10,983 nt of DNA from an uncultured Oscillospiraceae bacterium. Its GTDB lineage: Bacteria; Bacillota_A; Clostridia; Oscillospirales; Oscillospiraceae. Made by a program: the position numbers and the translations under genes. The notes beneath the pieces were generated by a model, which saw nothing but the letters and a program-made list of their open reading frames with translations, was not told the DNA's origin and searched no databases. The DNA lies in the NCBI GenBank assembly GCA_900757695.1, contig CAAEOU010000172.1, positions 1 through 10,983 of the forward strand. The letters run 5' to 3'. Positions 1 to 10,983 of this stretch are shown piece by piece (positions within the stretch are counted from its first letter, which is position 1; each line of letters starts with the position of its first letter).

Positions 1-349
1 CGTCCACCACCTTTGTAATAATCACGCAGAACCATTCGGTGGAAAAATGCAGATCATATTGGTGCAGGAGTTTTTTCAGTCTCTCGCCACTTGGCACTTC
101 GTTTTGCAGCAGATTCTTTAGTATGTTCTCCTGAAGCAGGCTTCCGGTGTGCGCCAGCTGCGATTTCTGCCGCAAGACCGTGCGGTACAGCTTCCAGATG
201 ACGCAGAAAGCCAGCAGAAATAACATCAAAAATGCCCCCACCGCAGCACTGAGCAGGCCGTAACACAGGGACAGGAAAAGGATACCAGCCGCAGCTGCAA
301 CAGAAAACAATAGCAGGGGCCACGGATGCGTTTGAAGTAATTTCTTCAC
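1..349 (-). CDS. Membrane-anchored AraC-type regulator, N-terminal part (runs off the left edge)
   Basis: Seen: a GTG start at 349-347 preceded by GGAGG with a 7-nt gap; an upstream ATG at 363 reaches a stop after five codons. The 116 visible residues begin MKKLLQTHPWP, then two hydrophobic stretches (about residues 10-30 and 33-53) separated by a very short loop. A basic juxtamembrane segment follows (KLYRTVLRQK), then a helical linker and 'LLQENILKNLLQNEVPSG' leading into a beta strand 'FCVIITKVV'. Known: that linker plus strand is typical of the sensory region of large Clostridia AraC regulators whose HTH lies at the C terminus, here outside the window. There is no room for an extracellular sensor between the helices, so signal sensing would be within the membrane or cytoplasm. 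Inferred: it is divergent from, and probably controls, the solute-binding protein/reductase unit. A PucR/CdaR-like regulator is an alternative, since the DNA-binding domain is not visible. Confidence 0.7.
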   Translation of the reverse strand, partial: MKKLLQTHPWPLLLFSVAAAAGILFLSLCYGLLSAAVGAFLMLFLLAFCVIWKLYRTVLRQKSQLAHTGSLLQENILKNLLQNEVPSGERLKKLLHQYDLHFSTEWFCVIITKVVD

Positions 350-399
350 GTTTTCACCTCCATCTGCTGGATACGGCAGTTTTTTGCAACTTTTTGCTT

Positions 400-428
400 A
401 TTATACGAAAATTCGTTGAAATTTGCAA
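400..428 (-). promoter_or_regulatory. Sigma-A-type promoter for the leftward regulator
   Basis: On the minus strand TTGCAA (428-423) is followed by exactly 17 nt and a perfect TATAAT (405-400). The expected start site is about 45 nt before the GTG codon. It is the best promoter in the divergent region, which suggests the regulator is made without help while the rightward operon has a weaker promoter. Confidence 0.8.
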
Positions 429-437
429 GGGATTTGC

Positions 438-515
438 TGCATATTTGACATAGGGATGCATTTTTGACAATCTGCATTTCACCGGAAAATATGCTGCTTT
501 TTTCGTCAAAAATGC
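438..515. promoter_or_regulatory. Three copies of a TGCATnTTTGACA-like element, candidate operator
   Basis: TGCATATTTGACA (438-450) and TGCATTTTTGACA (457-469) are direct repeats matching at 12 of 13 positions, 19 bp apart start to start. A third copy lies inverted at 505-515 (GTCAAAAATGC), a perfect 11-bp inverted partner of 458-468. The pair sits just upstream of the regulator -35 box; the inverted copy sits upstream of the candidate promoter for the solute-binding protein gene. Paired direct repeats of about two helical turns are usual for AraC-family proteins, so binding by the divergent regulator is a reasonable inference. No direct proof is visible. Confidence 0.5.
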
Positions 516-538
516 GAGCTGTGTGAAAAAAGCAAGCG

Positions 539-567
539 TTGCAATCCAGTATAAAACAGTTCAAAAT
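539..567 (+). promoter_or_regulatory. Weak candidate promoter for the solute-binding protein operon
   Basis: TTGCAA (539-544) with a 17-nt spacer leads to CAAAAT (562-567), a 4/6 match to TATAAT. An alternative -10 is TATAAA (550-555), but the region 17 nt before it (AAAAAG) is not a -35 box. Either way the promoter is poor, as expected for one needing an activator. Confidence 0.35.
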
Positions 568-617
568 AAAAGCATCTCAGCCACAGCTGGAAAATAAAAC
601 GAAGGAGCGTTTGCAAC

Positions 618-2366
618 ATGAAAAAAGAAAAGTTATTCTCTCTGCTGCTGGCAGCCTGTATGCTCATCGGTCTGCTCAGTGCCTGCGGCGGCACATCGTC
701 CGGCGCTTCCACCAGCGGAAGTGCATCGTCCGGTGCTTCAGCCGATGCCGACACAACATCTTCCATTGAAAACTCAGCGGTGGAAGCCACAGCTTCCGCC
801 CAGCCCGCAGAGCAGACCGGCGATACAGCAGATCTGCATTCCTCCGCTCAGGAGGGAACCCCGGGTGAATCCATCAGCTACCCCATCGGAGACGGCAGTC
901 AGGAACTGAGCATGTTTATGCTCTTTACCCTCAGCAATTATTTTGACTCCCCCGCAGACAGCGTCTATTGGCAGGCCTTTGAGGAAGCAACCGGCGTCAA
1001 CGTCAACTTCACGCCGACAGATAATGAAAGTCAGGCCGAGAAATTCTCGCTGATGGTGGCCTCCGGGGACTACACCGATCTCATGCACAACTTCAATAAC
1101 CTCTATTCCGCAGGACTGGACAACGCAGTGGAGCAGGAGATCATTCTCCCGCTGAACGACTATATGGATTGCCTGCCGGATTACATGGCAGCAATTTCAC
1201 AAAACGACACTATGTCTAAGGCAGCCGTCACCGACGACGGAAACTACGCAGTCGTGCGGGGCTTTTATGACTGCATTTCCTATACCAATTATGGTCTGGT
1301 AATCCGTCAGGACTGGCTGGATGACTTGAATATGGAAGTTCCGCATACCTACGATCAGCTCTATGACGTTATGAAAGCATTTGTCAGTGAAAAGGGCGCA
1401 TCCTACGGTGTCTTTGTTCCCTATACCGGCGTAATCTTTGGCGATTATCTGGTAGCGGGCTATGGTGTGTCCGGTTTCACCTTTGATGCAACCCGTTCTC
1501 CCTTCTATCAGGTGGACGGTGAGGTAAAATTTGGCGCCATTGAGGACGGCATGAAGGACTACCTGACCATGATGCATCAGTGGTACGATGAGGGACTGGT
1601 GGACCATGACTTCACCTCTTATACCGCAAACTTCACCTATCCAGATGACAGCGACATTACCAATGAAGAAGTCGGAATCTGGGGCTGTATTACGGGCCTG
1701 ATCTCCGCATATCCCACATGGTTTGATGAAGGCTCCAGCTTCCAGCTCAGTGCTATGGCAGACATGGTCAAGGAAGAGGGCGATATGAACCATTTCTCCT
1801 ACGCCCGTGATCTGTCTCTGGGCGGCACCGGAATTGCGATCTCTGCCAACTGCGAGGATCCGGAGCTGGCCGCAAAGTTCCTCAATTATAATTTTACAGA
1901 CGAAGGATACCTTCTCAACAACTATGGCGTTGAGGGTGTCTCCTATGAATATGTGGACGGCAAGCCTCAGTTTACCGAAGCGGTAACCGCCAATGAAACC
2001 ATGCCAACCAACTATGCACTGGCTTACTATGCGCAGTCCACCAACGGTGCTTTTATCATTGACAGCCATCGAATGGACAGCACCTACAATGACGTACAGC
2101 TGGGTGCAGCAGCAATCTGGGATTCCGTTACAGACGGCGCTTACGACTATCCCAGCTTTGTTACTCTGACCTCCTCTGAAAGTGAGTCCTTCTCTAAGAC
2201 ATATTCTGATATCAACAGCTATGTGCAGGAGATGATCCTGAAGTTTATCATCGGTGAGGAATCTCTGGACAACTGGGACAGCTACGTGGAAAATGTAAAG
2301 GCCATGGGCATTGACACCTGCATTGAAATTAAGCAGGACGGCTACGACCGCTACATGGAACGCTAA
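618..2366 (+). CDS. Extracellular solute-binding lipoprotein, family 1 (LplA/YtcQ-like)
   Basis: The 582-residue protein has a clear lipoprotein signal: MKKEKLFSLLLAACMLIGLL then the lipobox L-S-A-C with Cys23, so it should be lipid-anchored on the outer face of the membrane. Residues 24 to about 90 are a low-complexity Ser/Gly/Thr/Ala and Glu linker. The mature binding domain starts near residue 95 (ELSMFMLFTLSNYFDSP), followed by 'FEEATGVNVNF' and 'FSLMVASGDYTDLM', hallmarks of large family 1 binding proteins. Known: these deliver sugars, oligosaccharides or other small molecules to ABC permeases. The ATG at 618 follows AAGGAG with a 10-nt gap. Odd: no permease or ATPase gene follows; the next gene, 19 nt away, is a flavin reductase. 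The protein may use distant permeases or act in sensing with the divergent membrane regulator. The ligand cannot be read from the sequence. Family assignment is firm; role is inferred. Confidence 0.9.
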   Translation: MKKEKLFSLLLAACMLIGLLSACGGTSSGASTSGSASSGASADADTTSSIENSAVEATASAQPAEQTGDTADLHSSAQEGTPGESISYPIGDGSQELSMFMLFTLSNYFDSPADSVYWQAFEEATGVNVNFTPTDNESQAEKFSLMVASGDYTDLMHNFNNLYSAGLDNAVEQEIILPLNDYMDCLPDYMAAISQNDTMSKAAVTDDGNYAVVRGFYDCISYTNYGLVIRQDWLDDLNMEVPHTYDQLYDVMKAFVSEKGASYGVFVPYTGVIFGDYLVAGYGVSGFTFDATRSPFYQVDGEVKFGAIEDGMKDYLTMMHQWYDEGLVDHDFTSYTANFTYPDDSDITNEEVGIWGCITGLISAYPTWFDEGSSFQLSAMADMVKEEGDMNHFSYARDLSLGGTGIAISANCEDPELAAKFLNYNFTDEGYLLNNYGVEGVSYEYVDGKPQFTEAVTANETMPTNYALAYYAQSTNGAFIIDSHRMDSTYNDVQLGAAAIWDSVTDGAYDYPSFVTLTSSESESFSKTYSDINSYVQEMILKFIIGEESLDNWDSYVENVKAMGIDTCIEIKQDGYDRYMER

Positions 2367-2385
2367 GGCTGGAAGGAGTAGTTCA

Positions 2386-4335
2386 ATGAAGGTAACATAT
2401 TCACATTTGCTTTCGCCGATTCAAATTGGCTCCCATACCATTCGAAATCGGATCATCGCATCCAATGCGCCGCCTCATTTTATCTGCGGAGCAGAAAATG
2501 CACCGGAAGATGCCTTCCTTACATACTATGGAAATCTTGCAAAGAACGGCGCAGGCATTGTGGTGGTAACGGATTGGTCAACAAACCAGAAAAGCTCCCC
2601 TGCTCTGGATGTGCAACGGTATCCCTACTATGATATCAGCGATCCCGCCGTAACCAACAACCTTTCTCTGCTGGCCGAAAGCGTACACTACTATCGCTCT
2701 AAGATTCTGATCTCCAAGCTGGGTTCCTTCCCGGATGGCTATGACGTGTGTGATTGTGACGCACCGGCAAAGCCGCGTCCCGGAACCTCCGGCGGCCCTC
2801 TTCGGGCCGCCACTGAGGAGATCATGGATGCCTCCATTCAGAAGCTTCTGGACGTCTTTGCGGTCTATCAGACCTGCGGTTTTGACGGGGTATCCCTGCA
2901 TATGTCTTATCAGAGCTTTTTCGGCGGCAGCTTTCTTTCTCCGCTGACCAATCATCGTACAGATGAATACGGTGGTTGTCTGAAGAATCGTGCACGATTC
3001 CCATTGCGGCTGTGCCGTGCAATCAAAGAGCGATTTGGAACAGACTTTCTGGTTGAGGTACTCATCAGTGGTGAGGAACGTGCAGGCGGTATCTCCGTAG
3101 ATGACACCATAGAATTTGCCAAGCTGGCGGAAGGATTAATTGACATTCTCCAGATTCGGGCAATGGATATCGAGCTCTCCCATCCCACCGGCTACAACTC
3201 CGTAGACAGAGCGCCGGTCACACTCCATGTGGCCGAAGCCGTCAAAAAGAGCGGAACCGGCATCGTCATTGCACCGGTCGGCGGTTATCAGGATCTTTCC
3301 TTTAACGATCAAATCATTGCAGAAGGAAAGTGCGATATGATAGCCATGGCACGGAGCTTTATTGCAGACCCGGACTACAGAGAAAAGGCCTATCAAGGTC
3401 GTGGCGATGATGTTGTCCCCTGTGTCCGCTGTAACAAATGCCACGTGGCACATATGAAAGGGCCATGGATCAACGTTTGTTCTGTAAACCCCACCTATGG
3501 CATTGCGCACCGGCTGGAACGGCTGAACAAACCGTCTCAGGGCGGAAAGCGCATTGCCATAATCGGCGGCGGCCCGGCGGGCATGCGCGCAGCACTGTAC
3601 GCTGCCGAAGTTGGTCATCAGGTAACCCTGTATGAAAAGTCAGACAAGCTGGGCGGTCAGCTATTCCATGCAGATTATGCCGCATTTAAGTGGCCGCTGA
3701 AAAAATACAAGGACTGGCTGGTGGCACAGCTGAAAAAGCAGCCCGTAGAGCTTCGGCTTGGTACCCTGCCCGCTCCGGAGGAAATCGAAGCGCAAGGATA
3801 TGATGTTGTCATTGCAGCCACCGGCGCAACACACCGTCTCCCGCCCATTGCCGGAATCAACAGCAGCATTCGCACCCCCATTGAGGTGTTTGGACATGCA
3901 CAGGAACTGGGCGAATCCGTCATTGTAATCGGTGGTGCGGAAACCGGAACGGAAACAGCGCTTTATCTGGCAGAGGAAGGGCACAAGGTCACGATTCTCT
4001 GCCGAAAGGACCGGCTGGCCTACGATGCAACATTGATCCACTTCTACTTCAGCATGATGGAGCGCTGCCAACAAAACCCAAACCTGACGATTGTGCTTCA
4101 GGCAGAAACCACTAGAATTGACGGAAACACTGTGTACTATACCGACAAAAATGGGGCACATAAAATTCATGCGGATACCATTGTTGCCAGCGGCGGCGTG
4201 GAACCCAATATGGATGCGGCCCTAGCCTATTGGGGCACAGCCCCGGTATTCCATATGATTGGAGACTGCGCCGAAAAGCACGGTAATTTGCAAAAGTGCA
4301 ATCGCATGGCATATGCAGCGACCCACACCCTGTAA
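2386..4335 (+). CDS. NADH:flavin oxidoreductase, 2-enoate / 2,4-dienoyl-CoA reductase type (FMN, Fe-S, FAD)
   Basis: 649 residues, the usual full length for this three-cofactor class, which reduces activated C=C bonds with NAD(P)H. Residues 1 to about 340 form the OYE-like FMN barrel: 'LLSPIQIGSHTIRNRI' at the N terminus, then 'FDGVSLHMSYQ' (His172), 'FLSPLTNHRTDEYGG' and 'MARSFIADPD' (321-330). A 4Fe-4S ligand set follows: Cys346, Cys349, Cys352 and Cys365 (CVRCNKCH then CSVNP). A dinucleotide fold begins at 390 with GGGPAG (394-399), a second has GGAETG (516-521), and the FAD-contact GDC is at 626-628. Start chosen at 2386 because GGAAGGAG sits 7 nt upstream; the frame stays open into the preceding gene but has no ribosome site there. 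Odd: the third cluster cysteine is one residue closer than in E. coli FadH (CxxCxxC rather than CxxCxxxC), and the usual GYL tyrosine near the flavin is not obvious. Substrate unknown; bile-acid, cinnamate-like or flavonoid-like enones are all possible. Confidence 0.9.
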   Translation: MKVTYSHLLSPIQIGSHTIRNRIIASNAPPHFICGAENAPEDAFLTYYGNLAKNGAGIVVVTDWSTNQKSSPALDVQRYPYYDISDPAVTNNLSLLAESVHYYRSKILISKLGSFPDGYDVCDCDAPAKPRPGTSGGPLRAATEEIMDASIQKLLDVFAVYQTCGFDGVSLHMSYQSFFGGSFLSPLTNHRTDEYGGCLKNRARFPLRLCRAIKERFGTDFLVEVLISGEERAGGISVDDTIEFAKLAEGLIDILQIRAMDIELSHPTGYNSVDRAPVTLHVAEAVKKSGTGIVIAPVGGYQDLSFNDQIIAEGKCDMIAMARSFIADPDYREKAYQGRGDDVVPCVRCNKCHVAHMKGPWINVCSVNPTYGIAHRLERLNKPSQGGKRIAIIGGGPAGMRAALYAAEVGHQVTLYEKSDKLGGQLFHADYAAFKWPLKKYKDWLVAQLKKQPVELRLGTLPAPEEIEAQGYDVVIAATGATHRLPPIAGINSSIRTPIEVFGHAQELGESVIVIGGAETGTETALYLAEEGHKVTILCRKDRLAYDATLIHFYFSMMERCQQNPNLTIVLQAETTRIDGNTVYYTDKNGAHKIHADTIVASGGVEPNMDAALAYWGTAPVFHMIGDCAEKHGNLQKCNRMAYAATHTL

Positions 4336-4344
4336 GGAGGAATC

Positions 4345-4962
4345 ATGGAACCAGTATTGATTGATTTGGCAGAACTGGGACGAGAAGCCGGTGTTCCGGA
4401 GCTGGAACGAATTGCTCCCAATGGGATACATGTAACCTTCCAGTCATGGAATGGCACGTACGTGCAAAAAATCATAACCCATCTGCAAAAAATTCAGCCT
4501 GAAAAGCTGATTTTGACGGGTCATGTGGATCCATGGGTCACGATGTCCGTCATACTGTCCCTGAACGCATCAGAGCTCTATTCCCGTGTTCCCGCCGGCG
4601 ACATGCGACTGGAACCGCTGCCCAGAGGCATGTACGACACCGATATTATAACAATGCACCAGACAGACGGGGATGTCTTTCTTACCTTTGATGGTAATGC
4701 ATTGGAAAAGAAAAGTGGCAGTCCGGAAAAGGTCCGTATGGATCAGGTCGTGCTCCCGGATGTGGGACCAGGGAAAAACATCTACCTTGTGGCAGACGGA
4801 AAATTTCCACATCAGCTGGCCGTGGCCTACAGCCTGTCGAGGGAATGTAAGCGCTTCTATATGGGCACCTCATCCTCCCCCAGCTGCAACACCGGCGTTT
4901 ACTACTGCTGCAAGGGCATCAATGAATCAATCGGCGATACCATCGCCAGAAAAACTCTCTGA
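4345..4962 (+). CDS. Uncharacterised 205-residue operon protein
   Basis: I do not recognise a family. GGAGG overlaps the stop codon of the reductase gene and lies only 4 nt before the ATG, so translation is probably coupled. The protein is soluble-looking, with no signal peptide or membrane segment. It shows alternating strand/helix stretches: 'KLILTGHVDPWVTMSVIL' near residues 54-71, an acidic/aromatic middle 'YDTDIITMHQTDGDVFLTFD', then 'NIYLVADGKFPHQLAVAYSL', which would fit an alpha/beta fold. The C-terminal third holds a short Cys cluster (SCNTGVYYCC) that might bind a metal or cofactor. Its place between a C=C reductase and a SnoaL-like protein suggests a role in the same conversion, or in handling its substrate or product. 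That is inference from position only. Confidence 0.8.
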   Translation: MEPVLIDLAELGREAGVPELERIAPNGIHVTFQSWNGTYVQKIITHLQKIQPEKLILTGHVDPWVTMSVILSLNASELYSRVPAGDMRLEPLPRGMYDTDIITMHQTDGDVFLTFDGNALEKKSGSPEKVRMDQVVLPDVGPGKNIYLVADGKFPHQLAVAYSLSRECKRFYMGTSSSPSCNTGVYYCCKGINESIGDTIARKTL

Positions 4963-4978
4963 GAAAGAAGGTATTATT

Positions 4979-5731
4979 ATGGAAATGAAAGAACAGTTGG
5001 AGCAGCTCTCCGCCCGTATGGATCACTTGGAGCACGAAAATGCCCGTTTGGATGCGGTGGTGCAGATTCAGAACATTATGTCTCTCTACTCCTATTATCA
5101 TGCATCCAACATGCATAAGGCCTGCGCCGAGCTGTTTGCCCGACATACCCCCGGCGTGGCCGTAGATATCCCGCATATCGGTGTATATGACAGCGGTTAT
5201 GAAGGGATCATTCGCTGCTATGAAATCGCCCACGAGTCCCTCACCCCCACAGAGGAGTCGAAAAAGGGCATGATGATGCTGCGCCCCTTTACCACGCCCG
5301 TCATTCAGGTAGCCGCAGACGGAAAGACCGCCAAAGGGCTCTGGCTCTCCCCGGGTCTGACCACAGGCGGCAATCCCCAGATAGGCTATCAGGCAAGCTG
5401 GGCATGGATCAAATACGGCTGTGACTTCGTTCTGGAAGAGGACGGCTGGAAAATCTGGCACCTGCGGGTCTATGGAATCTTCATGACCCCCTTTGAAGAG
5501 TCATGGGTCACCTCCTCCCAGAAGGTCATCCCGCCGGAGGAGCTGGAGAAAAAGAAGAAGATGATGGCAGAACGTGAAAAAAATCGCCCTGCCGGTGCTG
5601 CACCTGACAGAACCAATGATGATTACGACTGGACCTACGGCACGGATAAGATTTACCCCACAGATATGCCGGTTCCGCCGACCCCATATGACACATGGGA
5701 TGACAGCATGACCTTTATGTATCAGGGCTAA
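4979..5731 (+). CDS. SnoaL/NTF2-like protein with C-terminal extension
   Basis: 250 residues starting at the ATG after AAGG with a 7-nt gap; the open frame upstream overlaps the preceding gene and lacks a ribosome site. Residues 2-25 are a heptad-like charged helix (MKEQLEQLSARMDHLEHENARL). Residues about 26-175 match the SnoaL-like cone fold: 'IMSLYSYYHASNMHKACAELFA', the strand 'FTTPVIQVAADGKTAKGLW', and 'EEDGWKIWHLRVYGIFMTPF'. Residues 180-250 are a Lys/Glu-rich helix and a Pro/Asp/Tyr-rich tail absent from short family members. Known: the fold includes cyclases, isomerases and the bile-acid 7-alpha-dehydratase BaiE. From memory, aligning with BaiE puts Tyr37 at its Tyr30, but Ala42 (or Asn44) at Asp35 and Thr105 at His83, so BaiE-type catalysis is not supported. 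It is the last gene of the operon. Enzyme, binding protein or partner of the reductase all remain possible. Confidence 0.8.
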   Translation: MEMKEQLEQLSARMDHLEHENARLDAVVQIQNIMSLYSYYHASNMHKACAELFARHTPGVAVDIPHIGVYDSGYEGIIRCYEIAHESLTPTEESKKGMMMLRPFTTPVIQVAADGKTAKGLWLSPGLTTGGNPQIGYQASWAWIKYGCDFVLEEDGWKIWHLRVYGIFMTPFEESWVTSSQKVIPPEELEKKKKMMAEREKNRPAGAAPDRTNDDYDWTYGTDKIYPTDMPVPPTPYDTWDDSMTFMYQG

Positions 5732-5771
5732 TAATACTGCCGTCCGGCGTATACGCATCCAGACTGTTCCG

Positions 5772-5794
5772 GATGAAAGATCGTTTCATCTTTT
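5772..5794 (+). terminator. Hairpin terminator after the solute-binding protein/reductase operon
   Basis: GATGAAA (5772-5778), loop GATCG, TTTCATC (5784-5790), then TTTT and a T-rich stretch CGCTTTGTTTG. The 7-bp stem is AT-rich and modest, but the position, 40 nt past the stop codon with a T tract, fits a rightward terminator. Confidence 0.5.
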
Positions 5795-5826
5795 CGCTTT
5801 GTTTGTAACAAAAGCGCTGTATAACA

Positions 5827-5865
5827 TAGGGACTGCTGCAAAACACACGTTTGCAGCAGTCCCTA
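5827..5865 (-). terminator. Long hairpin between convergent operons, probable pepTV terminator
   Basis: A perfect 16-bp stem (5827-5842 with 5850-5865) with a 7-nt loop contains GGGACTGCTGCAAA and its complement. It begins 12 nt after the pepV stop codon. The T tract on the minus strand is weak (TATGTTATAC), and on the plus strand a pyrimidine-rich run follows, so it may work in both directions or mainly protect transcript ends. Confidence 0.6.
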
Positions 5866-5877
5866 CTTCACTTTCTC

Positions 5878-7296
5878 TTATTCTTCGCCGCAAAGGCTCA
5901 CAATGGCATCCGCAAAAATCTTCACAGAGGCCACCAGCTCGTCTACCACTGCAAACTCGTCATTGCCGTGCATGCGGTTATCCGTGCCGGGCATGGTGCA
6001 GCCAAAGGCTACGCCGTTTTTCATGTTATGGCAGTAGGTGCCGCCGCCAATGGCCAGCGGCTTTGCGTCCTTGACACCAGTGAACTTCTCATAGCTCTTC
6101 AGCAGGGTCTGCACAAAGGGGCTGTCCTCCGGCACGTGGTGGGGCGGCTTCATGGGAATATCCTTCAGTGCCAGCCCCTTGGACGCACAGGCCCGCATGG
6201 CCGTATACTTCATGTTCTGGTCGTTGGCGCAGATCGGGCATCTGGAGTCAAACTGGGCCTCCAGAGATGTAGGAGTCACATGGATGATATCCAGACTCAG
6301 AGTCAGCTCGCCGGACATCTCGTCCTCCATTTTCACTCCGAGGCCCTGTCCCAGATAATCCCCATGGGGGATCAGCTCATGCAGGCCCCGAATCGCCTTC
6401 ACCTGCGGGGATTCCGGCAGATGCATGGAAGCCGCCAGATGCAGCATGGCCGTAATGGCATTGTTGCCACCCTGGGGAGATGCCGCATGGGCACCCTCCC
6501 CCTGTGCATCAATGGCGATGGTGTTCTTGTCCAGCTCTGTTACCGTAAAGCTGACACCGGTGGCTTCCTTTGCTCCTGCGCAGTAGATCTCCGCAACGGT
6601 CTTCCGCATGCCCTCGATCTCCATATGGCACTTATCCGGCACCACATTGATCTTCAGACCCGCATCAATCTCCTTGATCCGGGGCAGCTGGGAGTCGGCC
6701 TGAAACTCTCCAAAGATCGTACCGATCAGGCCGCCCTTTTCGATGTTGATCAGCGGGTAATCTGCATCGGGAGAAAAGGTGTATTTTGCCTCCGGCTCCC
6801 GGTCATAGTAATAGGCAATGTCGCCGCTGCCGCACTCCTCATCGGTGCCCCAGATCAGGCGTACATTGTGCTTCAGGGGAACATTCAGCTCCTTCAGACA
6901 CCGGAGCGCATACAGCGCCGCAACCCCGGGGCCTTTATCATCGGAGGTGCCGCGGCCATAGATCTTTCCATCCTTCACAATGGGATCAAACGGGCCTGTG
7001 ACCGTCCATCCCTCCGCCACCGGCACGCAGTCCATGTGACTGAGAATGTCCAGATGATGGTCATTGTTCGGCAGAAAATCCACCGTTCCCACATAGCCGT
7101 CATAATTGGTGGTTTTGAAGCCATAGCCTCCGGCAATCTCCAGCGCCTTTTTCAGCGCCGCATCCGGTCCGGGGCCAAATGGCACACCTTCCTGCGGCTC
7201 TCCCCGGTCAGAGGGAATCCGCACCAGCTTTTTGATGTCCTCCAGAAATTCCTCACGATGGGCCTCGGCCCACTGGGAAATGATCTCTTTATCCAT
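5878..7296 (-). CDS. pepV: PepV-type M20 metallodipeptidase
   Basis: 472 residues, close to Lactobacillus PepV. It hydrolyses dipeptides in the cytoplasm with a di-zinc centre. Visible sites match PepV almost number for number: His87 and Asp89 (SHMDCVPV), bridging Asp119 (GRGTSDDKGP), general base Glu153/Glu154 (GTDEECGS), Asp177 (SPDADYP), His270 in the lid (GEGAHAASP) and C-terminal His443 (NRMHGNDE). Start chosen at 7296: AGGAG lies 9 nt upstream, and the alternative ATG 33 nt earlier lacks a site and sits within pepT. The gene overlaps the end of pepT by 8 nt, so both are surely cotranscribed and probably translationally coupled. No separate promoter is seen. Known relatives also include Staphylococcus Sapep, so exact dipeptide range is open. 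Confidence 0.93.
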   Translation of the reverse strand: MDKEIISQWAEAHREEFLEDIKKLVRIPSDRGEPQEGVPFGPGPDAALKKALEIAGGYGFKTTNYDGYVGTVDFLPNNDHHLDILSHMDCVPVAEGWTVTGPFDPIVKDGKIYGRGTSDDKGPGVAALYALRCLKELNVPLKHNVRLIWGTDEECGSGDIAYYYDREPEAKYTFSPDADYPLINIEKGGLIGTIFGEFQADSQLPRIKEIDAGLKINVVPDKCHMEIEGMRKTVAEIYCAGAKEATGVSFTVTELDKNTIAIDAQGEGAHAASPQGGNNAITAMLHLAASMHLPESPQVKAIRGLHELIPHGDYLGQGLGVKMEDEMSGELTLSLDIIHVTPTSLEAQFDSRCPICANDQNMKYTAMRACASKGLALKDIPMKPPHHVPEDSPFVQTLLKSYEKFTGVKDAKPLAIGGGTYCHNMKNGVAFGCTMPGTDNRMHGNDEFAVVDELVASVKIFADAIVSLCGEE

Positions 7297-8527
7297 GGAT
7301 ATTCGCTCCTTTTCCGTAGGTATATACAATATGGCAGAGAATTTTCGGCATGGTTTCCAGTCCTCTCACGGTGACAAACTCATGAACGCCATGGAACTGA
7401 TAGCCGCCGGTAGACAGATTGGGGCAGGGCAGCCCCTTAAAGCTGAGGCTGGCGCCATCGGTACCGCCGCGAATGGGCTGGGTCTTTGGTTCGACGCCAT
7501 AGGCCCGGAATGCTGCGGCGGCATTTTCAATGAGATGCATATGCGGCTGGATCTTTTCCCGCATATTGTAGTAGGTCTCCCTGATCTCCACCTCTGCGGT
7601 GCCCGCACCGTACTTTGCATTGATCAGCTCCGCTGCGGACTGCATAAACCGCTCCTTGGCTCGGAGCTTCTCCAGATCGTGATCCCGCAGAATATACCGA
7701 AGGAATGCATCTGTGACGCTTCCGCCCATTTCATCCAGATGATAAAAGCCCTCATAGTCCGCAGTGTGCTCCGGAGTCTCCGCCTCCGGCAAAAGGCCGT
7801 GGAATTCCGTTGCAATGGCAGCAGCATTGACCATCAGATCCTTTGCAGAGCCGGGATGCACCCCAACGCCATGGAAGGTCACCTTTGCAGATGCCGCATT
7901 AAAGTTCTCATATTCCAGCTCCCCAAGCGGGCCTCCGTCTACGGTATAGGCAAAGTCACAGCCAAATGCCTTTACGTCAAAAAGCTCCGGTCCTTCCCCG
8001 ATCTCCTCATCGGTGGTAAACGCCACCTTTACGGTTCCGTGGGGCTGATCCGTGTGCAGCAGCTCCTCGGCCATGGTCATAATCTCCGCAATGCCGGCCT
8101 TGTCATCCGCCCCCAGCAGCGTGGTGCCATCAGTAACGATGATATCCTCGCCCACCACCTCACTGAGGCACTCATAGCCGGTATCCGGGGACATGGACAC
8201 CGTATCGTTCAGCTGGATGGTACCGCCGTCATAGTTTCGGATGATTCTGGCCTTAACATTCTTTCCGGACGCCGCACAGGATGTATCCATGTGGGCAAGG
8301 AAGCCCAGCACAGGAACCTTACGCTCCGTATTGGCCGGAATGGTGCCGAATACCGCGCCATCCTCCGGTGTCATATGCACATCCTGAAGTCCCAGCGCCC
8401 GCATCTCTTCCATGAGCTTTTCTGCCAGCACCTTCTGGCCGAGCGTAGAAGGCCGAAGACCCGATGTCTCGCTGGATGTGGTCTCTACGGTAATATACTC
8501 TAAAAATCGACTGGTTGCCGTTGTCAT
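7289..8527 (-). CDS. pepT: Peptidase T (M20 aminotripeptidase)
   Basis: 412 residues, the family's usual size. It removes N-terminal residues from tripeptides in the cytoplasm. Zinc and catalytic residues are all visible: His79 and Asp81 (FLAHMDTS), Asp141 (LLGADDKAG), Glu174/Glu175 (TTDEEIGEG), Asp197 (TVDGGP), and His382 in HGVHEF. Substrate-site signatures FHGVGVHPGSAK and PIRGGTDGASLS are intact. Start at 8527 is set by AGGAGG 8 nt upstream; a further ATG 21 nt earlier would place the ribosome site inside the gene. It is first in a two-gene unit with pepV, consistent with stepwise breakdown of imported tri- and dipeptides. A promoter lies directly upstream at 8549-8576. Confidence 0.96.
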   Translation of the reverse strand: MTTATSRFLEYITVETTSSETSGLRPSTLGQKVLAEKLMEEMRALGLQDVHMTPEDGAVFGTIPANTERKVPVLGFLAHMDTSCAASGKNVKARIIRNYDGGTIQLNDTVSMSPDTGYECLSEVVGEDIIVTDGTTLLGADDKAGIAEIMTMAEELLHTDQPHGTVKVAFTTDEEIGEGPELFDVKAFGCDFAYTVDGGPLGELEYENFNAASAKVTFHGVGVHPGSAKDLMVNAAAIATEFHGLLPEAETPEHTADYEGFYHLDEMGGSVTDAFLRYILRDHDLEKLRAKERFMQSAAELINAKYGAGTAEVEIRETYYNMREKIQPHMHLIENAAAAFRAYGVEPKTQPIRGGTDGASLSFKGLPCPNLSTGGYQFHGVHEFVTVRGLETMPKILCHIVYTYGKGANIHG

Positions 8528-8538
8528 AGTATGCACCT

Positions 8539-8559
8539 CCTGATCCATATTCTATCAGG
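8539..8559. repeat. Inverted repeat over the pepT -10 box and ribosome site
   Basis: CCTGAT (8539-8544) and ATCAGG (8554-8559) are perfect 6-bp inverted copies separated by 9 nt. One arm touches the -10 hexamer and the other touches the Shine-Dalgarno sequence. It could be an operator for a repressor; a leader hairpin is less likely because transcription probably starts inside it. Chance is possible for so short a repeat. Confidence 0.3.
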
Positions 8560-8576
8560 TTATGGTTAGAAGTCAA
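8549..8576 (-). promoter_or_regulatory. Promoter of pepT-pepV
   Basis: Minus strand TTGACT (8576-8571), 16-nt spacer, TAGAAT (8554-8549). Both boxes match consensus at 5 of 6 positions. The predicted start lies close to 8542, giving a leader of only about 15 nt before the ATG at 8527. Confidence 0.7.
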
Positions 8577-8667
8577 TTCTTTTCTTCCATCATACCCCCA
8601 GCAAGAGGTCACCCCTTCTTCCCTTTCGATTTACAATCTTTCGTTGTATCCAATTTTCCCCATTATC

Positions 8668-8695
8668 TTTACATCCTTTTCCTATCTGGTATAAT
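8668..8695 (+). promoter_or_regulatory. Promoter of the cytidylate kinase-like gene
   Basis: TTTACA (8668-8673), 16-nt spacer, TATAAT (8690-8695) with the extended -10 TG at 8687-8688. A small GGAAG/CTTCC stem (8702-8706 with 8716-8720) lies in the short leader before AAAGGAGG. Confidence 0.75.
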
Positions 8696-8740
8696 AAAAA
8701 AGGAAGTATACTTGTCTTCCATTAGAAAGGAGGATTTCCA

Positions 8741-9346
8741 ATGAAATATAATATTATTACCATAAACCGTGAGTTTGCCTCCTGCGGCAGTGAGATTGCC
8801 CAGCAGGTGGCCCAGCGCCTCCATATCACTTATGTGGACAAGTTTCTGATCACCGAGGCCGCACAGCAGGGCGGATTCCGAGCAGACCGTGTCGAGGCAA
8901 CAGACGAGCAGCTGGCCTCCCGCTTTGAATACTCTCAGGCCGAGGCCGCACACTATTACGCCACTGCCAGCTCTGCTCTGCCCACCACTGCGCAGATCGC
9001 TGAAATTCAGTTTAAGCTCATTGAAGAAATGGCCCAGCGGAGTCCCTGCGTCATTGTAGGCCGCTGCGCCAATCATGTGCTGCGCAGCCGGGACGATGTA
9101 CTGGATATATTCATTCATGCCAGCCGGGATGTCCGCATCCACGAAACTATGAAGATGTTCTCCCTGAAGGAAAATGAAGCGGTTCGGCTTCTAAAACGCA
9201 CCGATAAGGCCCGGAAGGCCTACTACAAAAACTATACCGGTATGGACTGGAACGACCCGAATTCCTACCACATGGTGCTCAACAGCGATCTTCTCCCCAT
9301 GGAGCTCTGCGTCAAGCTGATTTGTGATGCCTATCAGGGCATCTGA
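8741..9346 (+). CDS. Cytidylate kinase-like family protein
   Basis: 201 residues with the pattern of the Cytidylate_kin_2 family, a P-loop kinase-like group common in Clostridia and without an agreed physiological role. It shows 'ITINREFASCGSEIA' (residues 6-20), where relatives have REYGSGG and true Cmk has a Walker A loop; here the glycine-rich loop reads ASCGS. It also has 'YVDKFLI' (31-37), the 'GRCANHVL' segment (107-114), and the closing 'YYKNYTGMDWNDPNSYHMVLNSDLL' region spanning 161-185. No canonical GxxxxGK[ST] is present, so CMP kinase activity should not be assumed. The ATG follows a strong AAAGGAGG. The gene stands alone, with its own promoter and a strong terminator, and is divergent from pepT. 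Confidence 0.9.
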   Translation: MKYNIITINREFASCGSEIAQQVAQRLHITYVDKFLITEAAQQGGFRADRVEATDEQLASRFEYSQAEAAHYYATASSALPTTAQIAEIQFKLIEEMAQRSPCVIVGRCANHVLRSRDDVLDIFIHASRDVRIHETMKMFSLKENEAVRLLKRTDKARKAYYKNYTGMDWNDPNSYHMVLNSDLLPMELCVKLICDAYQGI

Positions 9347-9390
9347 GCATTTTCCTTGCCGCTCAGTTCTATTCCTACCCGTCAATCAGA

Positions 9391-9439
9391 AGCAGCCGTG
9401 CATTGGAATCCCAGTGCACGGCTGCTCTATTATTGTTTG
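9391..9439 (+). terminator. Strong intrinsic terminator after the kinase-like gene
   Basis: AGCAGCCGTGCATTGG (9391-9406) pairs with CCAGTGCACGGCTGCT (9411-9426): 16 pairs including one G-U, with loop AATC. It is followed by CTATTATTGTTTG. It lies 45 nt past the stop codon. Confidence 0.9.
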
Positions 9440-9491
9440 TGTGATTGCAGCATTGAAGCCACTTTTCTCTTTCCTCCTCCGCTTTCAGCTC

Positions 9492-9919
9492 CTATCCAAG
9501 CCAGCTGCGGCTCCGGTACAGGAATGTCACAGACTGTCCGCGGGTACACTTATGGTCGGTGGCAAACTTCCCTCCGCCAACGCCATCGGTGACCCCGTTT
9601 TCCACTGCCCAAAGCACTGCGGGATAATAGTATTCCGTTTCCTTCAGATCCGTAAAGGAAGAAGCCTGCTCCTGCGCCTCAGGCGCTCCCAGATACCGCC
9701 ACAAAACGTCACGATCTGAGTATGGGTACAGGTCTCATTGGGACTGAATCGGGTTGCCGCAGTACCGGTAGTGACCCTGTTCTCCACTGCCCAAAGCACT
9801 GCGTCATAGTAGTATTTTCCCTCCAGCACATCCGTAAAGGGGTTGGCCGTGTTTTGGGGAGCGGGAGAGCCCACGGCACGCCACAGCATTGTTACGATCT
9901 GTCCCCGTCTTCGTTTCAT
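9492..9919 (-). pseudogene. Frameshifted two-repeat SLH-domain remnant
   Basis: Two S-layer homology repeats are readable on the minus strand. First frame from ATG 9919: MKRRRGQIVTMLWRAVGSP, 'PFTDVLEGKYYYDAVLWAVE', 'FSPNETCTHTQIVTF'. Then the reading moves to another frame with 'LWRYLGAPEAQEQ', 'FTDLKETEYYYPAVLWAVE', 'KCTRGQSVTFLYRS' and a stop at 9492. One base is missing in the A run at 9703-9706 (T run on the coding strand); restoring it gives one continuous frame of about 142 residues. Known: SLH domains, usually three at a protein end, bind secondary cell-wall polymers. No signal peptide or effector domain remains, yet GGGAGG lies 5 nt before the ATG, so the fragment may still be started. 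It is most likely the tail of a decayed surface protein. A sequencing error in the homopolymer, or a short SLH protein, is the alternative. Confidence 0.75.
9589..9840 (-). repeat. Two 70-bp direct repeats encoding the SLH units
   Basis: 9589-9658 and 9771-9840 align without gaps over 70 bp and share long identical cores, such as TCCACTGCCCAAAGCACTGC. The offset is 182 bp, one short of 183 (61 codons), which independently supports a single lost base between them. Confidence 0.8.
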
Positions 9920-10116
9920 AGTTACCTCCCATGTGTTCAAAATGTCCTTTCGATCCTGCTTTGACATCAGTATTTCCGACATTTTCTTACAAAAAGTTCT
10001 GAATATCATACCATATTTTCATTCTATTTGTATACACAAAAAAAGTAATTATATGTCTTTTTGTGCTTTTCTTTCAGCGCTTTCCCTTCGAATTCTCTCC
10101 GTTTCATGTTCCAAGC

Positions 10117-10145
10117 TTTGCATGTGCTTGAAAATCTGTTATAAT
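10117..10145 (+). promoter_or_regulatory. Promoter of the right-hand regulator
   Basis: TTTGCA (10117-10122), 17-nt spacer, perfect TATAAT (10140-10145) with extended TG at 10137-10138. It predicts a leader of about 100 nt. The flanking 9920-10116 stretch is AT-rich and otherwise holds only a weak leftward extended -10 (TATGAT, minus strand, near 10007) that might serve the SLH remnant. Confidence 0.75.
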
Positions 10146-10155
10146 AATGATCGCT

Positions 10156-10210
10156 GAACAAGTCCATCCGGACTTGAAAACACTGGATTTTAAGATTTTC
10201 GAACTTGTTC
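10156..10210 (+). promoter_or_regulatory. Leader with mutually exclusive inverted repeats
   Basis: Element 1, GAACAAGTCC (10156-10165), can pair its CAAGTCC with GGACTTG (10170-10176, loop ATCC), or its GAACAAGT with ACTTGTTC (10203-10210). The two pairings compete for the same bases. Elements lie just after the predicted start and before AAGGAGG at 10236. They may be a leader switch or repeated protein sites; no terminator T tract follows. Confidence 0.45.
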
Positions 10211-10250
10211 CTTATACATGATCCCGGAATTGCTCAAGGAGGTACCCCTC

Positions 10251-10983
10251 ATGGACGGTTTGATGCAAACTACCATTCCGCAGGAGCGAATTACCCGTGA
10301 TGCCCTGCGGGATCTCTTTTTTATCAACTTTCTCTCAGGCAGCGTGTATGACTCAGAAGCCGCCATCCGCTCCGCCGCCCGCGAAGTCGGGCTGACCTTT
10401 CCGCACCCACTGTTTCTGGTGCTGATTGCCCGGACAGAGCACTGGGGAAGCGCCTTTGCAAAGGGCGAAGCGGATCTCCGGGAATGTCATTTTATCCTCC
10501 GCAATGCGTTGGAAAACGGTTTTTCAGGCATCTGTCAGGCCGCCAATGTGCTGGGAGAAATGACTGCTATCATCAATCTGGAAGCCCTGCCGGAGTCCGG
10601 CATTGACGGAATTGCACAATCTGCGGGGCAGATTCTTGAAATACTGGATTCCGAATTTGGCGTATCTGCCACCATTTCAATTTCCCGGCTCTATCATAAT
10701 CTGGAGCAGCTGCCGCAGGCCTTTCAGGACGCACGGCATGTACAGGAATACATCCAGCTGATGGGCGATGACGCTCCCGTGACCGCCTACGAGCAGCTGA
10801 CTCACCCCTATCTCAGCCGACCTCCGGCATCATACTTCGATATGGAGCATCAATTGGCCCGCTGTGTAAAATCCAAGGATTTTTCCGGCTTTCAGGAGAT
10901 TCTGCACCGATTTATCGACAGTGAGTTCACCTCTTCCCGTCCCACTGTAGACACCTTCCGATTCCGGGTCTATGGCATGGTCA
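10251..10983 (+). CDS. Soluble AraC-type regulator, N-terminal part (runs off the right edge)
   Basis: The 244 visible residues start at an ATG 8 nt after AAGGAGG. No membrane segment is present. Residues about 16-60, 'RDALRDLFFINFLSGSVYDS' then 'PLFLVLIARTEHWG', match in pattern the segment seen in the left-edge regulator. A GGDEF-like sensory core follows, with 'FGVSATISISRLYHNLEQLP' then 'AFQDARHVQEYIQLMG' (residues about 130-170). 'FDMEHQLARCVKSKDFSGF' and the following helices are the usual connector before a C-terminal AraC HTH, which lies outside the window. Known: this layout occurs in Clostridia AraC regulators of uptake and carbohydrate genes; PucR/CdaR proteins share the middle domain and are the main alternative. 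Its target is likely downstream and not visible. The long leader suggests extra control. Confidence 0.75.
   Translation, partial: MDGLMQTTIPQERITRDALRDLFFINFLSGSVYDSEAAIRSAAREVGLTFPHPLFLVLIARTEHWGSAFAKGEADLRECHFILRNALENGFSGICQAANVLGEMTAIINLEALPESGIDGIAQSAGQILEILDSEFGVSATISISRLYHNLEQLPQAFQDARHVQEYIQLMGDDAPVTAYEQLTHPYLSRPPASYFDMEHQLARCVKSKDFSGFQEILHRFIDSEFTSSRPTVDTFRFRVYGMV

Follow-up and report, generated by a model that had tools for sequence, protein, structure and literature searches.

The 10,983-nucleotide (nt) stretch of DNA analysed here (hereafter the window; assembly GCA_900757695.1, contig CAAEOU010000172.1, positions 1 to 10,983 of the forward strand) comes from an uncultured Oscillospiraceae bacterium. 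It carries four open reading frames (ORFs) on one strand, separated by spacers of 19, 9 and 16 nt. An earlier inspection of the letters alone (the sequence-only reading) had proposed them as an undescribed cassette of binding lipoprotein, old yellow enzyme (OYE)-type reductase, unrecognised protein and SnoaL-fold protein. ORF and Pfam analysis bore out this gene content, along with the short distance between the binding protein and the reductase (2366 to 2386). The claim that there is no permease also held: a Pfam scan of nine window ORFs found none, and thus no permease pair of a carbohydrate-type ABC uptake system. The four genes, with protein lengths in amino acids (aa), are as follows.

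618..2366, + strand: family 1 extracellular solute-binding lipoprotein (SBP), 582 aa (PF01547, E 8.8e-15; lipobox-like LSAC at the N-terminus, read from the sequence)
2386..4335, + strand: OYE-type enoate reductase with flavin mononucleotide (FMN), [4Fe-4S] and flavin adenine dinucleotide (FAD) parts, 2,4-dienoyl-CoA reductase-like, 649 aa from the ATG at 2386 (PF00724, E 1.8e-36, plus Pyr_redox_2; Cys motif)
4345..4962, + strand: putative tandem Csx3-like (SAVED-like) protein, 205 aa (structural model and profile comparison)
4979..5731, + strand: SnoaL_4 (NTF2-like) protein, probable dehydratase/isomerase, 250 aa (PF13577, E 8e-11)

The 205-aa protein and its link to SnoaL

The description of the 205-aa protein as unrecognised stands as far as model libraries go: it had no match in Pfam at E 0.1, the Crn3/Csx3 family PF09620 included, nor in NCBIfam or PADLOC. 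What that description missed is a likeness to Csx3 and SAVED proteins. The structural model of the protein has a Csx3 fold, with Crn3/Csx3 and SAVED as its nearest folds; AlphaFold2 run without an alignment gave a poor prediction (pLDDT 44.6). When a 14-sequence alignment of the family was compared with tandem Csx3 proteins, the profiles matched at 97.1% (P 5e-11) with a score of 77.7, against at most 22.9 for 30 column shuffles, 11.5 for the reversed profile and at most 21.5 for comparisons involving SnoaL, OYE and SBP. One of the tandem Csx3 proteins from that comparison matched AfCsx3 at E 1.5e-9. Together, the model and the profile comparison support the view that this is a tandem Csx3-like (SAVED-like) protein. 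Sequence matches in the PDB, whether found with the protein alone (SIRP/antibody chains, best E 0.004) or with a 7-sequence profile (best E 0.89), were taken as chance.

A similar arrangement occurs at loci L117-L136, from the phylum of a Dehalococcoidales genome (G408), where proteins combine a P-loop-like N-terminus, judged by eye, with C-terminal Csx3 domains; L126 and L135 were excluded from this Csx3 set. The window protein shares with them a W...L...G-x-x-x-x-W layout and two C-terminal Csx3-like units, but they differ from it in having the extra N-terminal domain and, in 15 of 18 cases read by eye, a D-x-R motif in the first Csx3 domain.

Relatives of the 205-aa protein are scarce. As a single query it found none in genome_contigs or viral_contigs and one cluster of 26 sequences in the protein database. 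A SnoaL alignment (A1) returned 80 loci (96 confirmed) from genome_contigs, belonging to rumen and gut Oscillospiraceae, other Clostridia and many Actinobacteria, and no match from viral_contigs; ORFs were mapped on 39 of the 80 loci. In a six-frame search of 15 genomes behind these SnoaL loci, the 205-aa protein matched in four, at 22-30% identity (E <= 1; best 3e-10), and on the short loci several of these matches lay within SnoaL arrays and one adjoined a binding protein. Profile matches were found in 7 of 400 genomes from the family of one carrier, G001 (E 0.01), one of them, in G337 (E 0.008), being excluded as weak. Elsewhere, at E 1e-4, the profile matched 1 of 394 genomes of the order and 1 of 391 of the class (G001 itself both times), and 1 of 397 in the family of another carrier, G005 (G005 itself). 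An alignment search of protein clusters yielded at least 38, of which 37 were new and none had a precomputed Pfam domain (7,992 best candidates scored). Several relatives are, by title, metagenome-assembled genomes (MAGs) from rumen or omasum.

The Csx3-like family comprises 14 genes in 7 genomes. In four genomes a SnoaL part and a Csx3-like part form a single ORF, of 503 aa in G001, 526 in G004, 534 in G002 and 506 in G134, the last being cut by the contig end. The SnoaL part was detected by tblastn with the window SnoaL in three fusions (E ~1e-9) and by an iterated in-house profile in all four (207-211 bits); the one fusion tested against Pfam SnoaL_4, from L095, scored 18.1, below the cut-off of 24, and has a Gly/Pro-rich linker. 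A further seven Csx3-like genes lie within 10 kb of SnoaL_4 genes, which brings those fused or near to 11 of 14. The remaining three are G002:C65, G004:C190 (a 3.5-kb contig) and G005:C100 (a 14.5-kb contig), and in the last of these the frame loses its C-terminal part. With the chance per gene set to an upper bound from each genome's SnoaL count, linkage gave P values of 4.8e-6 for all genes (11/14), 6.6e-4 for unfused genes (7/10) and 4.0e-4 with near-identical pairs merged (6/8), which serve as guides because paralogues are not independent and some genomes were reached via SnoaL loci.

Two Csx3-like proteins of 222 aa are encoded away from SnoaL genes. The gene at L091 (9798-10466) adjoins those for a 492-aa DUF218 protein with seven hydrophobic segments and a histidine-phosphatase-family protein, and the gene at L093 (1637-2305) is neighboured by ORFs of 492 and 201 aa. 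Genes beside lone SnoaLs in L012, L030, L003 and L036 were considered as further Csx3-like candidates, but none of six such proteins, a SnoaL among them, gave a match.

SnoaL_4 genes are themselves numerous in these genomes, with 10-42 matches in each of the seven family carriers versus 0, 1, 0, 0 and 0 in five others of the family draw; G003 has 16 SnoaL_4 matches and no Csx3-like match. The expansion is strong in G002 (3.1 Mb, 41 matches) and G004 (2.4 Mb, 42 matches). On 30 stretches including the window, chosen non-randomly for a SnoaL or Csx3-like gene, we counted 87 SnoaL_4 genes in 35 runs (in-house profile above 60 bits, own gene caller). Sixty-six of them fall in 16 runs of three and three runs of six; the others comprise 13 single genes, two runs of two (both cut by the stretch end) and one run of four. 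Trios or multiples occur, among other stretches, on L092, L094-L096, L113, L114, L008, L026, L046 and L080. BaiE and scytalone dehydratase are homotrimers, so a heterotrimer is the natural guess for SnoaL_4 genes that come in threes, and the trios suggest heterotrimeric enzymes. The window SnoaL is a single gene, as are its top-scoring relatives in L003 and L030 (43% and 41% identity, the best in the fetched loci; other homologues reach 68% and 61%), and trio members in L004 and L008 score almost equally against it. It has Arg102 at a position held by His in 51 of 81 aligned SnoaL genes.

Composition of the cassette and flanking genes

Thirteen stretches of 3.5 to 20 kb, the short ones of which may hide genes, contain a Csx3-like gene (the window, L091-L097, L113-L116 and L140). 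The SBP family is present on seven (the window, L092, L094, L095, L096, L115 and L116) and OYE on four (the window, L092, L094 and L113). The stable core is SnoaL plus the Csx3-like protein, with the SBP common and OYE optional. The cassette idea survives in part: SnoaL_4, the family of the 205-aa protein and a permease-free SBP recur together in gut and rumen genomes, but the four genes are not a fixed unit. AraC-type regulators were confirmed in L095, L115 and L092, and a LysR regulator takes their place in L113.

The window SBP is 29-39% identical to its 14 best relatives in the fetched loci. By hydropathy, SBPs of this family occur without a permease in L094, L095, L115 and L116; the sole hydrophobic candidate in L092 is a 142-aa protein, and L096 has an ABC exporter pair. 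Because several relatives are permease-free, an SBP without permease appears to recur in the SnoaL/Csx3-like setting. On the evidence of L094, L095, L115 and L116 we rejected the possibility, raised in the sequence-only reading, that a permease normally follows and was merely lost here. Two observations count against this rejection: Opp-type permeases are present in L113 and L097 (Pfam) and probably L114 (SBP_bac_5, hydropathy), and L015, L041 and L059 have candidate permeases, two genes of ~300-460 aa (clusters c18 and c19), ahead of a farther SBP.

The reductase has the three parts of a 2,4-dienoyl-CoA reductase-type enoate reductase, namely an FMN barrel, a retained [4Fe-4S] cluster motif (CVRCNKC...C, of the form CxxCxxC..C) and an FAD/NAD domain. 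Its best PDB sequence matches are 6qkg and 1ps9 (2,4-dienoyl-CoA reductase), and its closest counterpart in the fetched loci, in L039, is 47.6% identical. The top NCBIfam models all scored well below their cut-offs and were rejected as identities: mycofactocin FadH-OYE 2 (319.9 bits versus 793), the long bilirubin reductase (NF045599; 296.8 versus 750) and BaiCD (NF041087; E 6e-85, 285.6 versus 825).

Other features of the window are listed below.

2..349, - strand: membrane-anchored protein cut by the window edge, N-terminal part only, possible regulator (two hydrophobic segments)
5827..5865, no strand assigned: hairpin with a 16-bp stem, between convergent genes (terminator-like site scan)
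5878-8527, - strand: adjacent PepV-like dipeptidase and peptidase T genes (two M20 peptidases), convergent with the cassette (Pfam/NCBIfam)
10218-10982, + strand: GGDEF_2 fragment cut by the window end (Pfam)

The protein at 2..349 has 116 aa within the window, where Pfam found no regulator domain; any DNA-binding part would lie outside. The membrane-anchored AraC regulator of the sequence-only reading is accordingly not established. A hairpin is present where the sequence-only reading had the cassette end at a terminator, but that ending is not established: terminator-like sites in the region number 8, barely above the 5.1 +/- 2.3 of shuffles. Farther downstream lie a gene for a cytidylate-kinase-like protein and then the GGDEF_2 fragment (Pfam), which has a weak relative at L115 (308-1543). 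Remnant-looking ORFs at 9492-10009 (- strand) resemble, by eye, S-layer-homology repeats.

Among the neighbours of cassette relatives are a flavodoxin-domain protein in L094, an FAD/[4Fe-4S] protein in L116, metallo-beta-lactamase (MBL)-fold proteins in L095, L015 and L077, and GH3 enzymes in L015 and L041; L012 encodes a protein with a FAS1-like dehydratase region. Proteins of cluster c7 adjoin one or more SnoaL_4 genes in L015, L021, L041, L071, L077 and L079, and both of those tested (L015, L077) are MBL-fold. Such neighbours fit reductive handling of glycosylated natural products but prove nothing.

A proposed role and its rivals

We propose that the locus is an anaerobic dehydrating and reducing cassette for a small molecule, in which the Csx3-like protein acts as a partner or ligand sensor of the SnoaL enzyme, and we put the probability of this at about 0.5. 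Gene order, protein families, model fold, fusion and linkage underpin the proposal, and we infer its remaining steps. Judging by its family, the lipoprotein would capture the compound at the cell surface. The SnoaL_4 enzyme would eliminate water from it or isomerise it, and the iron-sulfur OYE enzyme, with NAD(P)H, would reduce the resulting activated C=C, both again by family. The 205-aa protein, its ring-nuclease residues apparently lost, may be a partner subunit of SnoaL or a ligand-sensing regulator, as the four fusions and the linkage suggest. The substrate could be a plant- or host-derived enone, enoate or hydroxy precursor. The reduction pathway put forward by the sequence-only reading finds support here, in that dehydration and then reduction follow from the families, SnoaL_4 and OYE both serving in bile-acid dehydroxylation (PMC10382948). 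More specifically, anaerobic gut metabolism may have taken over a tandem Csx3/SAVED-like fold to serve a SnoaL_4 enzyme, in many cases a heterotrimer, either as one of its subunits or as its allosteric ligand sensor, an idea we hold tentatively, at slightly under even odds.

The alternative that survives best gives the tandem Csx3-like protein a catalytic part of its own within a heteromeric SnoaL enzyme, where it might act as a hydrolase, a lyase or the carrier of a cofactor. Its fusion to one SnoaL of the arrays would suit such a role, as would the near-invariance of W35, G59, W64, K144, C188 and G197 in the family. However, several near-invariant positions align with the Csx3 core and may be structural, and we know of no catalytic precedent for a Csx3-like subunit; we consider this explanation unlikely.

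It is distinctly less probable that the protein controls the cassette by actively cleaving or sensing cyclic oligonucleotides, in defence or signalling. The nearest folds point in that direction, and in the literature consulted Csx3, CARF and SAVED proteins are treated as proteins that sense antiviral second messengers or, as ring nucleases, cleave them. In Crn3, H60 and D69 are required, the R71A and H80A variants are much weaker and H57 is conserved (PMC7371418). Hand-read alignments place Crn3 H57/H60/D69/R71/H80 at Y162/S165/G174/S176/I192 in the second half of the 205-aa protein and the D69/R71 positions at V82/A84 in the first half, with neither a D-x-R nor a histidine pair at Crn3-equivalent positions; at ~10% identity this transfer is approximate and single columns may be shifted. 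None of the 7 genomes that carry relatives had a match to Csm1 (controls 7 of 14) or to SMODS (controls 3 of 14), Cmr2 and other cyclases not being searched and genome completeness not being given. PF09620 matched 0 of 15 and 0 of 5 genomes behind the fetched loci, with no control match in either set. The nine window ORFs contain no cas domain, there are no CRISPR genes in the window, and the lack of a PADLOC match also speaks against a defence role. The protein further departs from Crn3/Csx3 in its metabolic neighbourhood and its SnoaL-fused relatives, and from the SAVED proteins Cap4, Cap5, CalpL and SAVED-CHAT in being shorter, in having no effector domain and in that no SMODS match was found in its relatives' genomes. 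The apparent loss of catalytic residues, together with the lack of Csm1 and SMODS matches, makes a ring nuclease unlikely; a different ligand is possible.

That four unrelated genes lie side by side by chance in this species is a little less probable again. The patchy presence of OYE (4/13) and the SBP family (7/13) would agree with it, but the genes share one strand with gaps of at most 19 nt, and the Csx3-like gene is both fused and linked to SnoaL.

Bile-acid 7-dehydroxylation is among the known systems closest to the locus: in gut Clostridia it sets the same two superfamilies side by side for dehydration and enone reduction, BaiE/BaiI being SnoaL_4 proteins, as the window protein is by PF13577, and BaiCD/BaiH flavoenzymes (PMC10382948). 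The locus differs from it in having a permease-free SBP and a Csx3-like protein. A bai-like operon is nevertheless very improbable, and the bile-acid assignment unsupported, since the reductase falls far below the BaiCD cut-off despite its low E value, the nine window ORFs include no CoA ligase, CoA transferase or 3-hydroxysteroid dehydrogenase by Pfam, and several relatives come from rumen or omasum.

Our literature search, which left most subscription papers outside, found no paper joining SnoaL with Csx3, or SnoaL with old yellow enzyme and the gut; of the rumen, Oscillospiraceae or gut gene-cluster papers naming SnoaL, none describes the cassette in its title or the start of its abstract. 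If such a recruitment of the tandem fold is true, the Csx3/CARF/SAVED folds would have a branch outside immunity, and SnoaL complexes would gain a new type. A tandem Csx3-like family that is degenerate and fused to a metabolic SnoaL would show the fate or origin of the fold outside immunity, and implies caution: such proteins are not automatically defence genes. Lastly, the SnoaL_4 expansions, with up to 42 matches per genome and, on the stretches read, a prevalence of trios, hint that rumen and gut harbour an anaerobic chemistry that is little explored.
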